From: Myxococcales bacterium
Lineage (GTDB): Bacteria; Myxococcota_A; Polyangia; Polyangiales; Houyiibacteriaceae
Assembly: GCA_019637115.1 (NCBI GenBank)
Contig: JAHBWH010000021.1
Coordinates: forward strand, 1 to 64,000
DNA: 64,000 nucleotides
Direction: 5' to 3'
Positions 22,662 through 63,499 of the stretch are shown piece after piece. The position numbers were made by a program, and so were the translations under genes. Every line of letters starts with the position of its first letter. The stretch's first letter is position 1. The notes below the pieces were generated by a model. It did not search any database. It was not told the origin of the DNA and saw nothing but the letters and a program-made list of their open reading frames with translations.

Positions 22662-22812
22662 GACAGCGGACGCGGACAGCGGACACGGACAGCGGACAGC
22701 GGACAGCGGACAGCGGACACGGACAGCGGACACGGACAGCGGACACGGACAGCGGACACGGACAGCGGACACGGACAGCGGACACGGACAGCGGACACGG
22801 ACAGCGGACACC
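22662..22812. repeat. 13-bp minisatellite (ggacacggacagc) between sco and ctaA
   Basis: Head-to-tail copies of a 13-bp unit ggacacggacagc, with some 7-bp truncated units (ggacagc), fill the 323-bp space between two genes of one functional group. Because 13 is not a multiple of three, all frames read through as a 13-residue repeat; none is a plausible gene. Confidence 0.88.
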
Positions 22813-22903
22813 GGACCGGACCCGGACCGGACACGACCGCGGACCACACGAGCGCGGACACGAGCCCAGAGGTTGCCGCCCCCATCACCCTGGTCCAAAG
22901 CCC

Positions 22904-25324: not shown

Positions 25325-27622
25325 ATGCTCCGCGTCGTGCCGGACGACGTCGTTTTGGGCATCGACCTCGGGACGACGAACTCGGTCGTCGCGGTGGCGG
25401 ATGGAACCGCCGCGCGGGTGCTCCCGACCGAGCTCGGCGCCCGCCTCGTGCCGTCGGTCGTGTCGTTCAAGGCGGACGGCGGGATCGTCGTCGGTGAGGA
25501 GGCGCGCGAGCGGCGCCTCGTGGACGCCGCGAACACGATCTACTCCGTGAAGCGCCTCATCGGGCGCCCCTTCAAGACCCCGGAGGTCCGCCGCGCTCAG
25601 CAGCGCTTCGGGTTCAAGCTCGTGGAGAGCGCGAACGGCGGCGTCGTCGTCGACGTCCGCGGCGAGACCTACACCCTCACCGAGATCAGCGCGTTCGTGC
25701 TCCGCGAGATCAAGCGCATCGCCGAGCACAACCTCGGCCGCAGCGTGTCGCGGGCCGTCATCACGGTGCCCGCGAACTTCAACGAGCTGCAGCGGAGCGC
25801 GACCAAAGCGGCGGGCCGCGTCGCGGGGCTCGAGGTCGAGCGGATCATCAACGAGCCGACCGCCGCGGCGCTCGCTTACGGCCTCGGCAAGCGCGGCTCG
25901 GAGCGGGTCGCGGTCTTCGACCTCGGCGGCGGCACCTTCGACATGACGATCCTTCAGCTCGACGACGACGTCTTCGAGGTGCTGTCGACGGCGGGCGACA
26001 GCTTCCTCGGGGGTGACGACATCGACCTCGTGATCGCCGAGCTCATGTGCGACCACTGCCTCTCGCAGCATCGCTGGGATCCGCGGCAAGACGACCAGGC
26101 CTTCGAGCGCCTGCGCGCGGCGGGCGAGTGGGCGAAGTGCCAGCTCTCCTCCGAAGCGCTCGCCGAGCTCACGATCGAGGAGCTGACCTATACGACGAGC
26201 GGGCGGCCGATCGACCTCGAGTTCAGCATCGACCGCCCGAGCTTCGAGGACGCCGTGCGACCGCTCGTCGCGAAGGCGTTCGACGTGTGCGTGGACGCGC
26301 TCGGCCAGGCGCGGATGAAGGCCACCGACGTGGACAACGTGGTGCTGGTCGGCGGCTCGACGAGGGTCCCCCTCGTTCGCGAGATGGTCCGTCAGTTCTT
26401 CGGACGCGAGCCGCACACGGGGCACGACCCCGACCTCGTCGTCGCGCAGGGCGCCGCGATCCACGGCTACGCGCTGCGCGGAAAGAACGCACCTGCCCCC
26501 TCGCTCGGCAAGGCCGGCGTCCAAAAGCTCGCGCGCGAAGAGCTCGCGGCGCTGCGCGCCGAGCGCGAGGAGCGACGCGCGGCGCTGCCCAAACAGCCCG
26601 CGTTCACGGGGCTCGACCTGCCGGTTCCGGTGGCGCCGAAGCGCGCCGGCCCGGTCGGGGCTGGAGCACGCCCCCCCTCGCTCGACGCGCCCTTCCCGGG
26701 CGCGCCACCGTCGAAGAAGAAGACCCTCGTCGGCGTGCCGAAGGTCCCTCCACCGCCTCCGGTGCCCCCGCGCGTGTCGCTCGATGCCCCCCGGACCGCG
26801 CCAGCCTCCCTCGACGCGCCCTTCACCGAGCCCTCCGGCTCGTTCCGCCTAGACGCGCTCGGGGGCGACCAGGCGGCCGCCCCCCCTCCGCTCGCCGATC
26901 CCTTCGCCTCCACCGTCGATCCTTTCGCCGCCCCCGTACGTCCGCTGGCGCCGCCGATCGAGACGTTCGGTGCGTCGAGCGGGGACCTCCCCGGGCCCGA
27001 GCTGCCCTCCGTCGTGATCGAGGCTGGCCTCCCGAGCGAGTCGTTCTCGAGCACCTTCGACATCGACGAGTGGAGCGCCGACGACGACGGGGCGCTCCCC
27101 TTGCCCTACGTACCGGAGCACGGGCCAGCGGAGCACGGGCAGGACCACGTCGACTTCGACGCGATCGGCGCTGGCGCCGCGCTCCCGATGATGAGCGACG
27201 AGGCGCCGCTCCTGATGGACGTCACCCCGCACTCGTTCGGGATCGAGACCGTCGGCGGGTTCTGCCAGCACCTGATCCGTCGCAACGCGCCGATCCCCTC
27301 GGAGCAATCGCGCGTCTTCACGACCGGCGCCGACGGCCAAGAGGTCGTGACCATCCGCATCTGCCAGGGGGAGGCGCGCAGCTTCGGCGAGAACCAAGCC
27401 CTCGGGCAGATCGAGCTCTCGGGGCTCCGATCGGCGCCGCGGGGCGCGGTGAAGATCGACGTGACCTTCCTGCTGGACGCGAGCGGCACGCTCGAGGTCC
27501 GCGCGATCGACGGCGACACGGGCGCGGCGCAGCACATCCGCATCTCCCTGCTCGGCGGCGCCGACGAGACGGAGATCCTCCAGATGCAGAAGCGGCAGCG
27601 CTCCCTCTTCGGCGGATCCTGA
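25325..27622 (+). CDS. Hsp70-family protein with long proline-rich linker and no lid
   Basis: 765 aa. The N-terminal nucleotide-binding domain is canonical: [69 protein letters not shown] (to about residue 388). Instead of the short hydrophobic linker there are about 240 residues rich in Pro, Ala and Ser (388-627), with repeats of the type SLDAPF. Then comes a substrate-binding beta domain starting [17 protein letters not shown] and ending SLLGGADE. The helical lid of DnaK is absent. ATPase-driven chaperone activity is likely, but client range and linker function are unknown. It lies 11 bases before the J-domain gene. Confidence 0.9.
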
Positions 27623-27633
27623 CCGGTGTCGCG

Positions 27634-28122
27634 ATGAGCGATCGGCTCGACCAGCTCGACTATTACACGCTGCTCGGCGCGGCGGACGACGCGCCTCCTG
27701 AGGAGCTCCAGCGCGCGTTCCGACGCTTCGCGCGCCGCTATCACCCCGACCGCTTCGCTGGGGAGCCGGCCGAGAAGATCGAGCGCGCCGCGAGCATCTA
27801 TCGGCGCGGCAGCGAGGCCTTCCAGGTCTTGATGGACCCGAAGACCCGCGCCGCCTACGACGAGGCGCTCCGCGCGGGCCAGACCCGCCTGAGCCCCGAA
27901 GAGCGAGATCGCGCGCTGCGAGACGTCGCGCCGAAGAAGTCCTCGCACCCCATCCGCTCCCCGCGAGCGCTCGCGTACTTCGAGCAAGGGGTCCGCGAGG
28001 CGCACGCGGGGGATTGGCGGGCGGCCTGGCGGTATCTCCGCGCGGCGTGCGACGAGGAGCCAGGGAACGTCTTCCTCGAGAGCCGCTTCCAACAGGTCGA
28101 TCGTCGGCTGCGCGGTTGGTGA
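27634..28122 (+). CDS. J-domain co-chaperone with short TPR-like tail
   Basis: 162 aa. An N-terminal J domain has the HPD motif in RRYHPDRFAG (residues 10-75), which stimulates Hsp70 ATPase activity. There is no Gly/Phe region, zinc finger or DnaJ C-terminal domain. The remainder holds one TPR-like helix pair (LAYFEQGVREAHAGDWRAAWRYLRAA). The gene starts 11 bases after the Hsp70 stop, so the two almost certainly form a dedicated pair. ATG 27634 has no strong GGAGG site. Confidence 0.88.
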   Translation: MSDRLDQLDYYTLLGAADDAPPEELQRAFRRFARRYHPDRFAGEPAEKIERAASIYRRGSEAFQVLMDPKTRAAYDEALRAGQTRLSPEERDRALRDVAPKKSSHPIRSPRALAYFEQGVREAHAGDWRAAWRYLRAACDEEPGNVFLESRFQQVDRRLRGW

Positions 28123-28207
28123 GTCCGGCGAGAAGCCCGCGAGCGGCCCGACGGCCCGCTCCTCTGCTCCGAAGCCACACGGCTCCGAGGCGCGACGCCC
28201 TCTCCGA

Positions 28208-28394
28208 AGCGGCGCTTCGAGCCTGCGGCGCGGGCGTGCACCTCCTCGTTCAGCTCGTCGTAGCCGAGCGGCGTTTCAAGCCTGCGGCGCGGGCATCTGC
28301 GCCACCAGCTCGTTCAGCTCGTCGTAGCCGAGCGGCGCTTCAAGCCTGCGGCGCGGGCACGTGCGCGACCTGCTCGTTCAGCTCGTCGTAGCCG
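28208..28394. repeat. Three tandem copies of the desaturase 3' end
   Basis: Copies at 28208-28266 (59 bp, degraded), 28267-28330 (64 bp) and 28331-28394 (64 bp). The last contains the real C-terminal codons and stop of the desaturase gene. Read on the minus strand each repeats GYDELNE...; the middle copy encodes GYDELNELVAQMPAPQA and a stop. Tandem duplication of the gene end has left vestigial C-termini downstream. Nothing else is seen in 28123-28339. Confidence 0.85.
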
Positions 28395-29332
28395 ACCGCG
28401 CCGAGATCCTCGCGCGTCTCGCGCGGCTCGGGGATCCACTCCTCGTCGGGGCCGTCGTAGGTCGGCGCGTAGGGCTTGCCGTCGTAGGTCCGCCGCTGCG
28501 ACAGGACGAAGGTCCGGAAGAGGTACGCGACGAGCGAGGGCTGGTCGAGGTTCGGGTGGATGTGCGGGGCCACGAGCTCCGCGTGGGCGGCTGGCGCGAG
28601 GCTCCAATGCAGCCCGGGCTTCATGTGGTGGATCGTGTGGAAGCCGTTGTTGAACGTGAACCAGTTGACGACCTTGCCCACGAAATTGCGCGAGTGGTCG
28701 TACGCGCTCGTCTCGTCACAGCCGTCGTGTTGGAGCAGGTTCATCGTGACGATGCCCCACTGCGCATAGAGGTGCGGGATCACCCAGAGGAGGAGCGCCT
28801 TGCGCCAGTCGACGACGAAGAGCGCGATCTGCACGGCCCAGAGCGCGACGCCCTCGATGACGAGCTGCCGGAACCACTTGGGGTGCCGCGTGCGCATCGC
28901 CTTCGCGTAGGAGGAGTCGGCCCGCATGATCGAGGGCACGCACGCGAGCATGAAGAAGAGCAGGTTCAGCAGGTTGTAGCGGAAGCGCGCCTTGGTCGTG
29001 CGCATCACGTCGCGGCGCGACTGGGTGTGCTTGTGGTGGCTGAGGTTGTGGCCCGGCACGTACGAGCTGACCGGGTGGCCATAGGTCAGCGTGAGCACGA
29101 CCTGCCAGACCTTGTTGAGGCTCCGCTGCTTGAAGATCGGGCAGTGGACGGCGTTGTGCGTCGAGACGGCGCCCTGAAAGCTGGTCACCATCAGCACGAG
29201 GTACGCGGGGATCGCCCAGCGCAGGTCGACGGCGCCGAGCTCGCTCGGCGTGGCGATCCACAGGAACGCGAGCGTCCCGAAGTAGAGGGCGACGAAGAAG
29301 AGGGTGCGCAGGTCGGCGGAGTAGCGGAGCAT
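28340..29332 (-). CDS. Membrane fatty acid desaturase
   Basis: 330 aa with four to five hydrophobic segments. Histidine boxes of the membrane di-iron desaturase/hydroxylase family are present: HNLSHHKHTQ, and NNGFHTIHHMKPGLHW near the C-terminus. It would introduce a double bond into acyl chains (or a related oxidation) using O2 and an electron donor. ATG 29332 is the first start that keeps the N-terminal membrane segment; upstream codons are Arg/Pro rich. The last codons (HVPAPQA) lie within a three-copy tandem duplication of the gene end. Substrate and regiospecificity cannot be read from sequence. Confidence 0.88.
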   Translation of the reverse strand: MLRYSADLRTLFFVALYFGTLAFLWIATPSELGAVDLRWAIPAYLVLMVTSFQGAVSTHNAVHCPIFKQRSLNKVWQVVLTLTYGHPVSSYVPGHNLSHHKHTQSRRDVMRTTKARFRYNLLNLLFFMLACVPSIMRADSSYAKAMRTRHPKWFRQLVIEGVALWAVQIALFVVDWRKALLLWVIPHLYAQWGIVTMNLLQHDGCDETSAYDHSRNFVGKVVNWFTFNNGFHTIHHMKPGLHWSLAPAAHAELVAPHIHPNLDQPSLVAYLFRTFVLSQRRTYDGKPYAPTYDGPDEEWIPEPRETREDLGAVGYDELNEQVAHVPAPQA

Positions 29333-32359: not shown

Positions 32360-32590
32360 CACCGAGTCCGGCGACCGAGTCCGGCGTCCGAGCCCGGCGA
32401 CGACCGAGTCCGGCGACCGGGCCCGACCGAGTCCGGCGACCGAGTCCGGGCGACCGGGCCCGGCGACCGAGTCCGGCGACCGAGTCCGGCGACCGAGTCC
32501 GGCGACCGAGTCCGGCGACCGAGTCCGGCGACCGAGTCCGGCGACCGAGTCCGGCGACCGAGTCCGGCGTCCGAGCCTGGCGACCGGGGC
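32360..32590. repeat. 13-bp minisatellite (cgaccgagtccgg)
   Basis: About 17 copies of a 13-bp unit, some with gggcccgg or gtccgagcc variants, in the 425-bp divergent region between the metalloprotease and the next gene. The unit length equals those of the arrays at 22.7 and 59.2 kb, but the sequence differs. Confidence 0.9.
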
Positions 32591-33186: not shown

Positions 33187-33207
33187 TCCTCCACCGGCGC
33201 CAGAGAC

Positions 33208-33478
33208 GGCCGCAGAACCGGACAGGCCGCAGAAACGGACACGGCCGCAGAACCGGACACGGCCGCAGAACCGGACACGGCCGCGGAACCGGACACGGCC
33301 GCAGAACCGGACACGGCCGCAGAACCGGACACGGCCGCGGAACCGGACACGGCCGCGGAACCGGACACGGCCGCGGAACTGGACAGGGCCGCGGAACCGG
33401 ACACGGCCGCGGAACCGGACACGGCCGCGGAACCGGACACGGCCGCGGAACCGGACACGGCCGCGGAACCGGACACGG
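33208..33478. repeat. 18-bp minisatellite (cgcagaaccggacacggc / cgcggaaccggacacggc)
   Basis: About 15 tandem copies of an 18-bp unit differing mainly at one position (a/g), filling the gap between two convergent genes and ending three bases before the stop of the next one. As 18 is a multiple of three it is read through in all frames, but there is no start signal or conserved protein. Confidence 0.92.
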
Positions 33479-49016: not shown

Positions 49017-49460
49017 ATGTCGCTCCGAGAACGACTCGCCGAAGACCTGAAGGCCGCCATGCGAGCGAAGGACGTCGTCGCGCGCGAGTGTTTGCGCATG
49101 ATCAAGACGGGCCTCGACGCCGCCGAGCTACAGAAAGGCGCCGCGCTCGACGAGAGCGAAGAGCTCGAGGTGCTCGTCCGCGCGGTCAAGACCCGCCAGG
49201 AGAGCGCGGCGCAGTACGACGAAGGCGGCCGAGAGGATCTCGCGAGCAAGGAGCGCGCCGAGATCGTGATCGTGGAGCGTTACTTGCCGAAGGCGCTGAG
49301 CGAGGACGAGGCTCGGCAGGCGCTCGCGGCGCTCGTGGCCGAGCTCGGGCTGAGCGAGAAGAAACAGATGGGTCAGCTCATGAAGGCCGTGATGGAGCGT
49401 TATCGCGGTCAGATCGACGGCAAGCTCGCGAGCCGCATCGCGGGCACCCTGCTCTCCTGA
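49017..49460 (+). CDS. YqeY/GatB-domain protein
   Basis: 147 aa. The sequence LRERLAEDLKAAMRAKDVVA, LRMIKTGLDAAEL, ESAAQYDEGGREDLASKERAE, IVERYLPKALSEDE and KKQMGQLMKAVMERYRGQIDG is the YqeY family pattern, related to the tail domain of GatB and thought to bind tRNA. ATG 49017 is the family start; 48981 adds an unrelated stretch. The last 16 codons are repeated in tandem after the stop (see repeat). Confidence 0.9.
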   Translation: MSLRERLAEDLKAAMRAKDVVARECLRMIKTGLDAAELQKGAALDESEELEVLVRAVKTRQESAAQYDEGGREDLASKERAEIVIVERYLPKALSEDEARQALAALVAELGLSEKKQMGQLMKAVMERYRGQIDGKLASRIAGTLLS

Positions 49461-49504
49461 TCGACGGCAGCTCGCGAGCCGCATCGCGGGCACCCTGCTC
49501 TCCT
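49412..49504. repeat. Tandem duplication of the yqeY 3' end
   Basis: Copy 1 (49412-49458, 47 bp) is the C-terminal coding end of the YqeY gene; copy 2 (49459-49504, 46 bp) directly follows and differs by one deleted base (caag to cag). It lies after the stop, so the gene product is unchanged. This looks like a recent duplication. Confidence 0.92.
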
Positions 49505-49595
49505 GATCGGGGCGCGAACCCGCCGATATGTGACTGGCGCCGGGGGCCGGGGATGGGTGACAGCGACGGATCGGGCTGCTAGACCCGCCGGCGTC

Positions 49596-59159: not shown

Positions 59160-59410
59160 CTGGTCGTCGGTCCCGGCCATCGGTCCCGGCCGTCGGTCCT
59201 GGTCCCCGGCCATCGGTCCCGGCCATCGGTCCCGGCCATCGGTCCCGGCCGTCGGTCCCGGCCATCGGTCCCGGCCATCGGTCCCGGCCATCGGTCCCGG
59301 CCATCGGTCCCGGCCATCGGTCCCGGCCGTCGGTCCTGGTCCCCGGCCATCGGTCCCGGCCATCGGTCCCGGCCGTCGGTCCCGGCCATCGGTCCTGGTC
59401 CCCGGCCATC
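59160..59410. repeat. 13-bp minisatellite (ggtcccggccatc)
   Basis: About 18 units of a 13-bp repeat with periodic longer units (ggtcctggtccccggccatc, 20 bp) fill the space between the second protease and the next gene. Third array in the window with a 13-bp unit, unrelated in sequence to the others. Confidence 0.92.

Positions 59411-62201: not shown

Positions 62202-63499
<1,298 letters not shown>

Follow-up and report, generated by a model that had tools for sequence, protein, structure and literature searches.

Why should the 3' end of a fatty-acid desaturase gene be present three times in tandem, and does this matter to the gene? The gene (28340..29332, minus strand; stop codon TGA at 28340-28342) lies in a window of 64,000 nucleotides, the whole stretch of DNA analyzed here, which comes from an 8.88-Mb draft genome in 434 contigs (G000). 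The encoded protein contains the PF00487 domain (E 1e-28; 101.3 bits against a cut-off of 29.7) and the histidine motifs of a desaturase, namely H61, H65, H97, H101, H102, H234, H237 and H238, all of which are invariant in 9 of the 9 aligned sequences and which we take to be the metal-binding boxes of the family. The named genomes that encode a related desaturase belong mostly to Myxococcota or Deltaproteobacteria and include Myxococcota bacterium Prado145 and Sandaracinus sp. NAT131. On the other side of the spacer, a DnaJ-domain gene (27634..28122, plus strand) is convergent with the desaturase gene, and the 217-bp gap bounded by the two genes holds two of the three repeat copies (copies 2 and 3 below). 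The DnaJ-domain gene is itself located close behind an HSP70-like gene (25325-28122 for the pair), the PF00012 match of which covers mainly residues 10-387 of 765.

TRF detected the array at 28208-28395 with a period of 64, 3.0 copies and a score of 288, compared to a best score of 74 among 1000 dinucleotide shuffles of 28150-28450, and the 50-nt self-matches reach 49/50, compared to at most 32 in 200 shuffles. Together with the alignment of the copies, these results bear out the initial annotation, which described three copies of 59-64 bp at the 3' end of the gene. The head-to-tail arrangement of a unit of tens of base pairs (TRF period 64, 3.0 copies) is that of a minisatellite. The initial annotation also took the last copy for the real gene end, which is true for the plus strand alone; read along the strand of the gene, copy 1 comes first and is the real end, followed downstream by copy 2 and then by a decayed copy 3. 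Copy 1 (28331-28394, minus strand; 64 bp) comprises the TGA with 52 coding bases before it and 9 bases past it. Copy 2 (28267-28330, minus strand; 64 bp) is identical to copy 1 in 59 of the 64 positions (5 differences) and retains an in-register TGA that is out of the gene's frame. Translated in register, copy 1 (that is, the gene) yields GYDELNEQVAHVPAPQA and a stop, and copy 2 yields GYDELNELVAQMPAPQA and a stop, in agreement with the claim that the middle copy still codes for GYDELNE...PAPQA with a stop. Copy 3 (28208-28266, minus strand; 59 bp) carries a 5-bp deletion and a TGA to CGA change; read in register, it has lost both frame and stop and continues, with no stop close to its end. 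Four of the five positions at which copies 1 and 2 differ fall inside 12 bp (cluster p ~0.06), which counts against plain drift, given that drift need not give clustering, and a multi-base event or conversion may have shaped the copies. The 5-bp deletion of copy 3 falls in the same part of the unit as this cluster.

In a search of the 8.88-Mb genome in which the best 40 of 256 first-look candidates were scored, the 64-bp unit had a single match at E <= 0.001; on this count we rejected a dispersed repeat family, and the occurrence of one unit at many loci that characterizes MIRU-like elements was not observed among these candidates. We consider it very probable that the array is a slippage-type or short-homology tandem duplication across the stop codon, tolerated rather than used. 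Under this scenario, a replication error of the slippage type or mediated by short homology, with endpoints astride the desaturase stop, would have duplicated 64 bp in tandem, and a further gain of a unit would have led to three copies. Copies 2 and 3 would thus have become part of the untranslated spacer between the convergent genes, where they would have drifted, acquiring substitutions and the 5-bp deletion and losing the third stop. The protein would be unaffected, as ribosomes arriving from upstream terminate in copy 1, and the duplication would be tolerated because this translated copy is intact. Given that strict homology at the duplication edges, when these are compared by eye, amounts to only ~1 bp, slippage is unproven; the substitutions are few, so that the neutrality of the array, like its molecular route, is something that we infer.

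The comparison with orthologs suggests an origin within one lineage. From the family search, we accepted as orthologs the matches outside the source genome with at least 58% identity (9 genomes), leaving out the weaker ones (<=41%). Of 12 loci from named genomes, 8 were already in the family search (one of these, L053, is a 5' fragment that lacks the end of the gene), 3 were new orthologs (L049, L050 and L054) and one, L056 (38% identity), is more distant. The resulting set comprises 12 distinct orthologs, 9 from the family search and the 3 new ones, with ~58-83% identity and a readable 3' end. Between 160 bp upstream and 400 bp downstream of the stop, TRF found a stop-spanning array in none of these 12 or in L056; L048 and L013 each have one 15-bp array some way downstream of the desaturase stop. 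Two genomes of the genus were compared, and in the other, clearly distinct one (G001), the desaturase protein is 78-83% identical and ends in GYDELNESVAHGVRT followed by the stop, in single copy. The simplest reading of these sequences is that the array arose in the present lineage once this had separated from G001. The view that tandem duplication had pushed older copies downstream needs to be divided: the 3' end of the gene has indeed been duplicated in tandem, whereas a displacement of older copies finds no support, with the array present in 0 of the 12 orthologs and no sign that the downstream copies are the older ones. The pre-duplication spacer was not recovered through DnaJ synteny in G001 and G003, the two genomes compared, where the best DnaJ match lies off the desaturase contig (C587 as opposed to C119/C496 in G001, and C221 as opposed to C215 in G003).

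Polarization of the differences between copies 1 and 2 against G001 suggests that the GTC of copy 1 (GTG to GTC, synonymous) is derived, and so is the CAG of copy 2 (CAC to CAG, His to Gln); the remaining differences are ambiguous or depend on an uncertain alignment with G001. These polarized changes, although tiny in number, would fit selection acting on copy 1 alone.

We surveyed tandem arrays in 856,592 bp of the source genome (the window and 40 further stretches, with 591 called genes) and in stretches of G001 (187 kb), the same-family G003 (238 kb), G031 (160 kb) and G032 (400 kb). The stretches followed the order of the contigs or were chosen for a contig size that was known, and are not a random sample. 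Arrays with a TRF period of at least 24 and a copy number of at least 1.9 were retained, arrays with more than 50% overlap were merged into one count, and genes were called with a home-made script based on codon usage. This survey identified 8 stop-spanning arrays in G000, 2 in G001, 3 in G003 and none in the sampled parts of G031 and G032; a looser first run had given 9 in the source genome, the additional one being an array at a 78-nt ORF (L066 15663). Besides the desaturase array, another of the eight lies in the window, at 49412..49509 (plus strand), where a 46/47-bp unit (98% match, the second copy lacking one base) covers the end of a YqeY-like gene (49017-49460; PF09424, E 3.8e-41). It is of the same kind as the desaturase array and is a separate event. 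Read in register, the downstream copy has retained a stop at its end in 7 of the 13 stop-spanning arrays.

Across the five genomes, the periods are divisible by 3 in all 73 arrays within genes and in 3 of the 13 across stops (4 of 13 by measured lags), a contrast that is partly built in, as an open gene is unlikely to contain an array that breaks its frame. Under random placement outside gene interiors, the expected numbers are 24.5 for start-spanning, 25.0 for stop-spanning and 53.5 for intergenic arrays, compared to the observed 1 (which depends on heuristic start sites), 13 and 89, respectively. Stops are far more permissive than starts for such arrays, which fits a duplication that keeps the translated copy intact. 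The possibility that stops are a hot-spot was rejected, as 13 is below the 25.0 expected by random placement; indeed, stops appear to be somewhat avoided and are not wholly neutral ground. Only 12 pairs among the 103 non-genic arrays share sequence at E <= 1e-4, so most of these arrays look like independent events. Per 100 kb of non-coding DNA, there are 35.3 non-genic arrays in G000, 27.3 in G001, 64.1 in G003, 11.4 in G031 and 13.6 in G032, that is, ~2-6 times more per non-coding base in the first three genomes than in the last two. The window additionally contains long arrays with 6- to 18-bp units and ~14-35 copies each at 22662-22844, 32361-32586, 33206-33478, 59167-59395 and 63135-63342. 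The desaturase array looks like an ordinary, harmless member of a recurrent class in a repeat-rich genome.

Among the other explanations, a role of the repeats as untranslated DNA or RNA, whether as terminator, as structured 3' RNA or as a barrier separating the convergent genes, would be in line with their position inside the 217-bp gap and with a precedent in Mycobacterium tuberculosis, where repeat length beside a gene is reported to be tied to expression (PMC2734929). Nevertheless, we regard such a role as very unlikely: the array folds no better than shuffled sequences (z -0.01, with 91 of 200 shuffles folding at least as well), a simple scan found 0 terminator-like sites, and the array is unconserved (0 of 12 orthologs). 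RNA structure and terminator were rejected on the missing fold signal and terminator pattern, and a simple pattern scan found no promoter pattern at the array. It is also conceivable that the assembled copy number is wrong, given that short reads may fail to span three near-identical units; the genome is a draft of 434 contigs and the array spans 188 bp. This appears extremely unlikely, because substitutions and a deletion mark each copy individually and similar arrays are found at other genes.

The remaining explanation assigns the repeats to the protein itself, and its assessment depends on what copies 2 and 3 could encode. Given that 64 is not divisible by 3, the frame of copy 2 differs from that of the gene, and read-through of the present stop would enter copy 2 in another frame. 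In its own frame, copy 2 has 33 open codons, and the only starts there would give 6 or 9 residues. A GTG in copy 3 opens a mechanical 128-aa ORF (27855-28241, minus strand) that is antisense to the DnaJ gene and was not picked by the codon-usage caller. Loss and gain of units were simulated with a script that omitted or doubled whole units. Loss of one unit, in register, left the protein length the same and introduced three changes into the tail (Q to L, H to Q and V to M), loss of two units gave a run-on product (451 aa versus 332 by the same count), and an extra copy of unit 1 left the protein unchanged. By alignment, the C-terminal tail of the desaturase is poorly conserved and varies freely among the orthologs; 6 of the 12 (G001, G003, G009, G031, G032 and L049) have a VAH motif close to the C-terminus, and this motif is retained in copy 1 but missing from copies 2 and 3. 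Distinct usable C-termini downstream of the gene, as in a silent cassette, were not found in the array: copy 2 amounts to three residue changes, and copy 3 has neither frame nor stop. The proposal of the initial annotation that unequal recombination could switch the protein tail is correct to the extent that, in the simulation, the tail of copy 2 would replace that of the gene when one unit is lost in register, and finds no support with respect to useful switching, which would have three changes in a poorly conserved tail, or a run-on upon loss of two units, to work with. A C-terminal switch, whereby unequal recombination would bring alternative tails into the gene and produce cells with different desaturase C-termini, is extremely unlikely: the in-register loss of one unit would indeed give a tail ELVAQMPAPQA with its own stop, but this tail differs in just 3 residues in a poorly conserved region, copy 3 supplies no usable tail, the array is missing in 12 of 12 orthologs, and a similar stop-spanning pattern is seen at unrelated genes.

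The duplication is of little importance for the desaturase itself. The value of stop-spanning duplications as a class is that they indicate which sites put up with short duplications, namely, sites within genes if the frame is kept, almost no starts and, with moderate frequency, stops. It could be imagined that stop-crossing duplications are so frequent in this lineage (8 in the sample of 591 called genes) that many genes are followed by ghost tails, a standing reservoir from which later loss of a unit or a frameshift would produce altered or extended C-termini, that is, slow, unregulated C-terminal evolution; we consider this very unlikely. A fuller survey of the family could measure how often the ends of bacterial genes are remodeled by stop-spanning duplication. 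In the open-licence literature, searched with few terms, titles and abstract openings did not mention tandem duplications across bacterial stop codons, which is no proof of absence.

Short-homology tandem duplication, or replication slippage, is a mechanism of head-to-tail duplication. The desaturase array is similar to the products of this mechanism in its head-to-tail copies and its lineage specificity, and differs in that its edges, compared by eye, show only ~1 bp of strict homology. In its position at a gene boundary, the array resembles other minisatellites of bacteria. In the M. tuberculosis complex, the repeat region between rnc and fpg1 is 279-358 bp long, whereas this gap measures 6 to 54 bp in the other mycobacteria shown; the region is described as a lineage-specific repeat beside a gene with a reported link to expression (PMC2734929). 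The tandem repeats of Burkholderia pseudomallei are mostly intergenic (PMC1853098). What these MIRU-VNTR and B. pseudomallei arrays have in common with the desaturase array is that the repeats are located at the boundaries of genes or between them. Unlike in these arrays, the desaturase unit copies the 3' end of its own host gene together with the stop, at a single place (with the best 40 of 256 candidates scored), and its 64 bp contrast with the B. pseudomallei units, mostly of 6-9 bp. The orphan cdiA-CT and rhs-CT modules are detached copies of 3' ends located downstream of the full gene, generally without translation starts, and encode different C-terminal domains along with immunity genes; in one strain, an orphan CT became fused to the main gene through a 3,557-bp deletion (PMC3150448). 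Compared with these modules, the desaturase array has the layout but not the content, given that its tails, of 17 residues, are nearly identical or broken.
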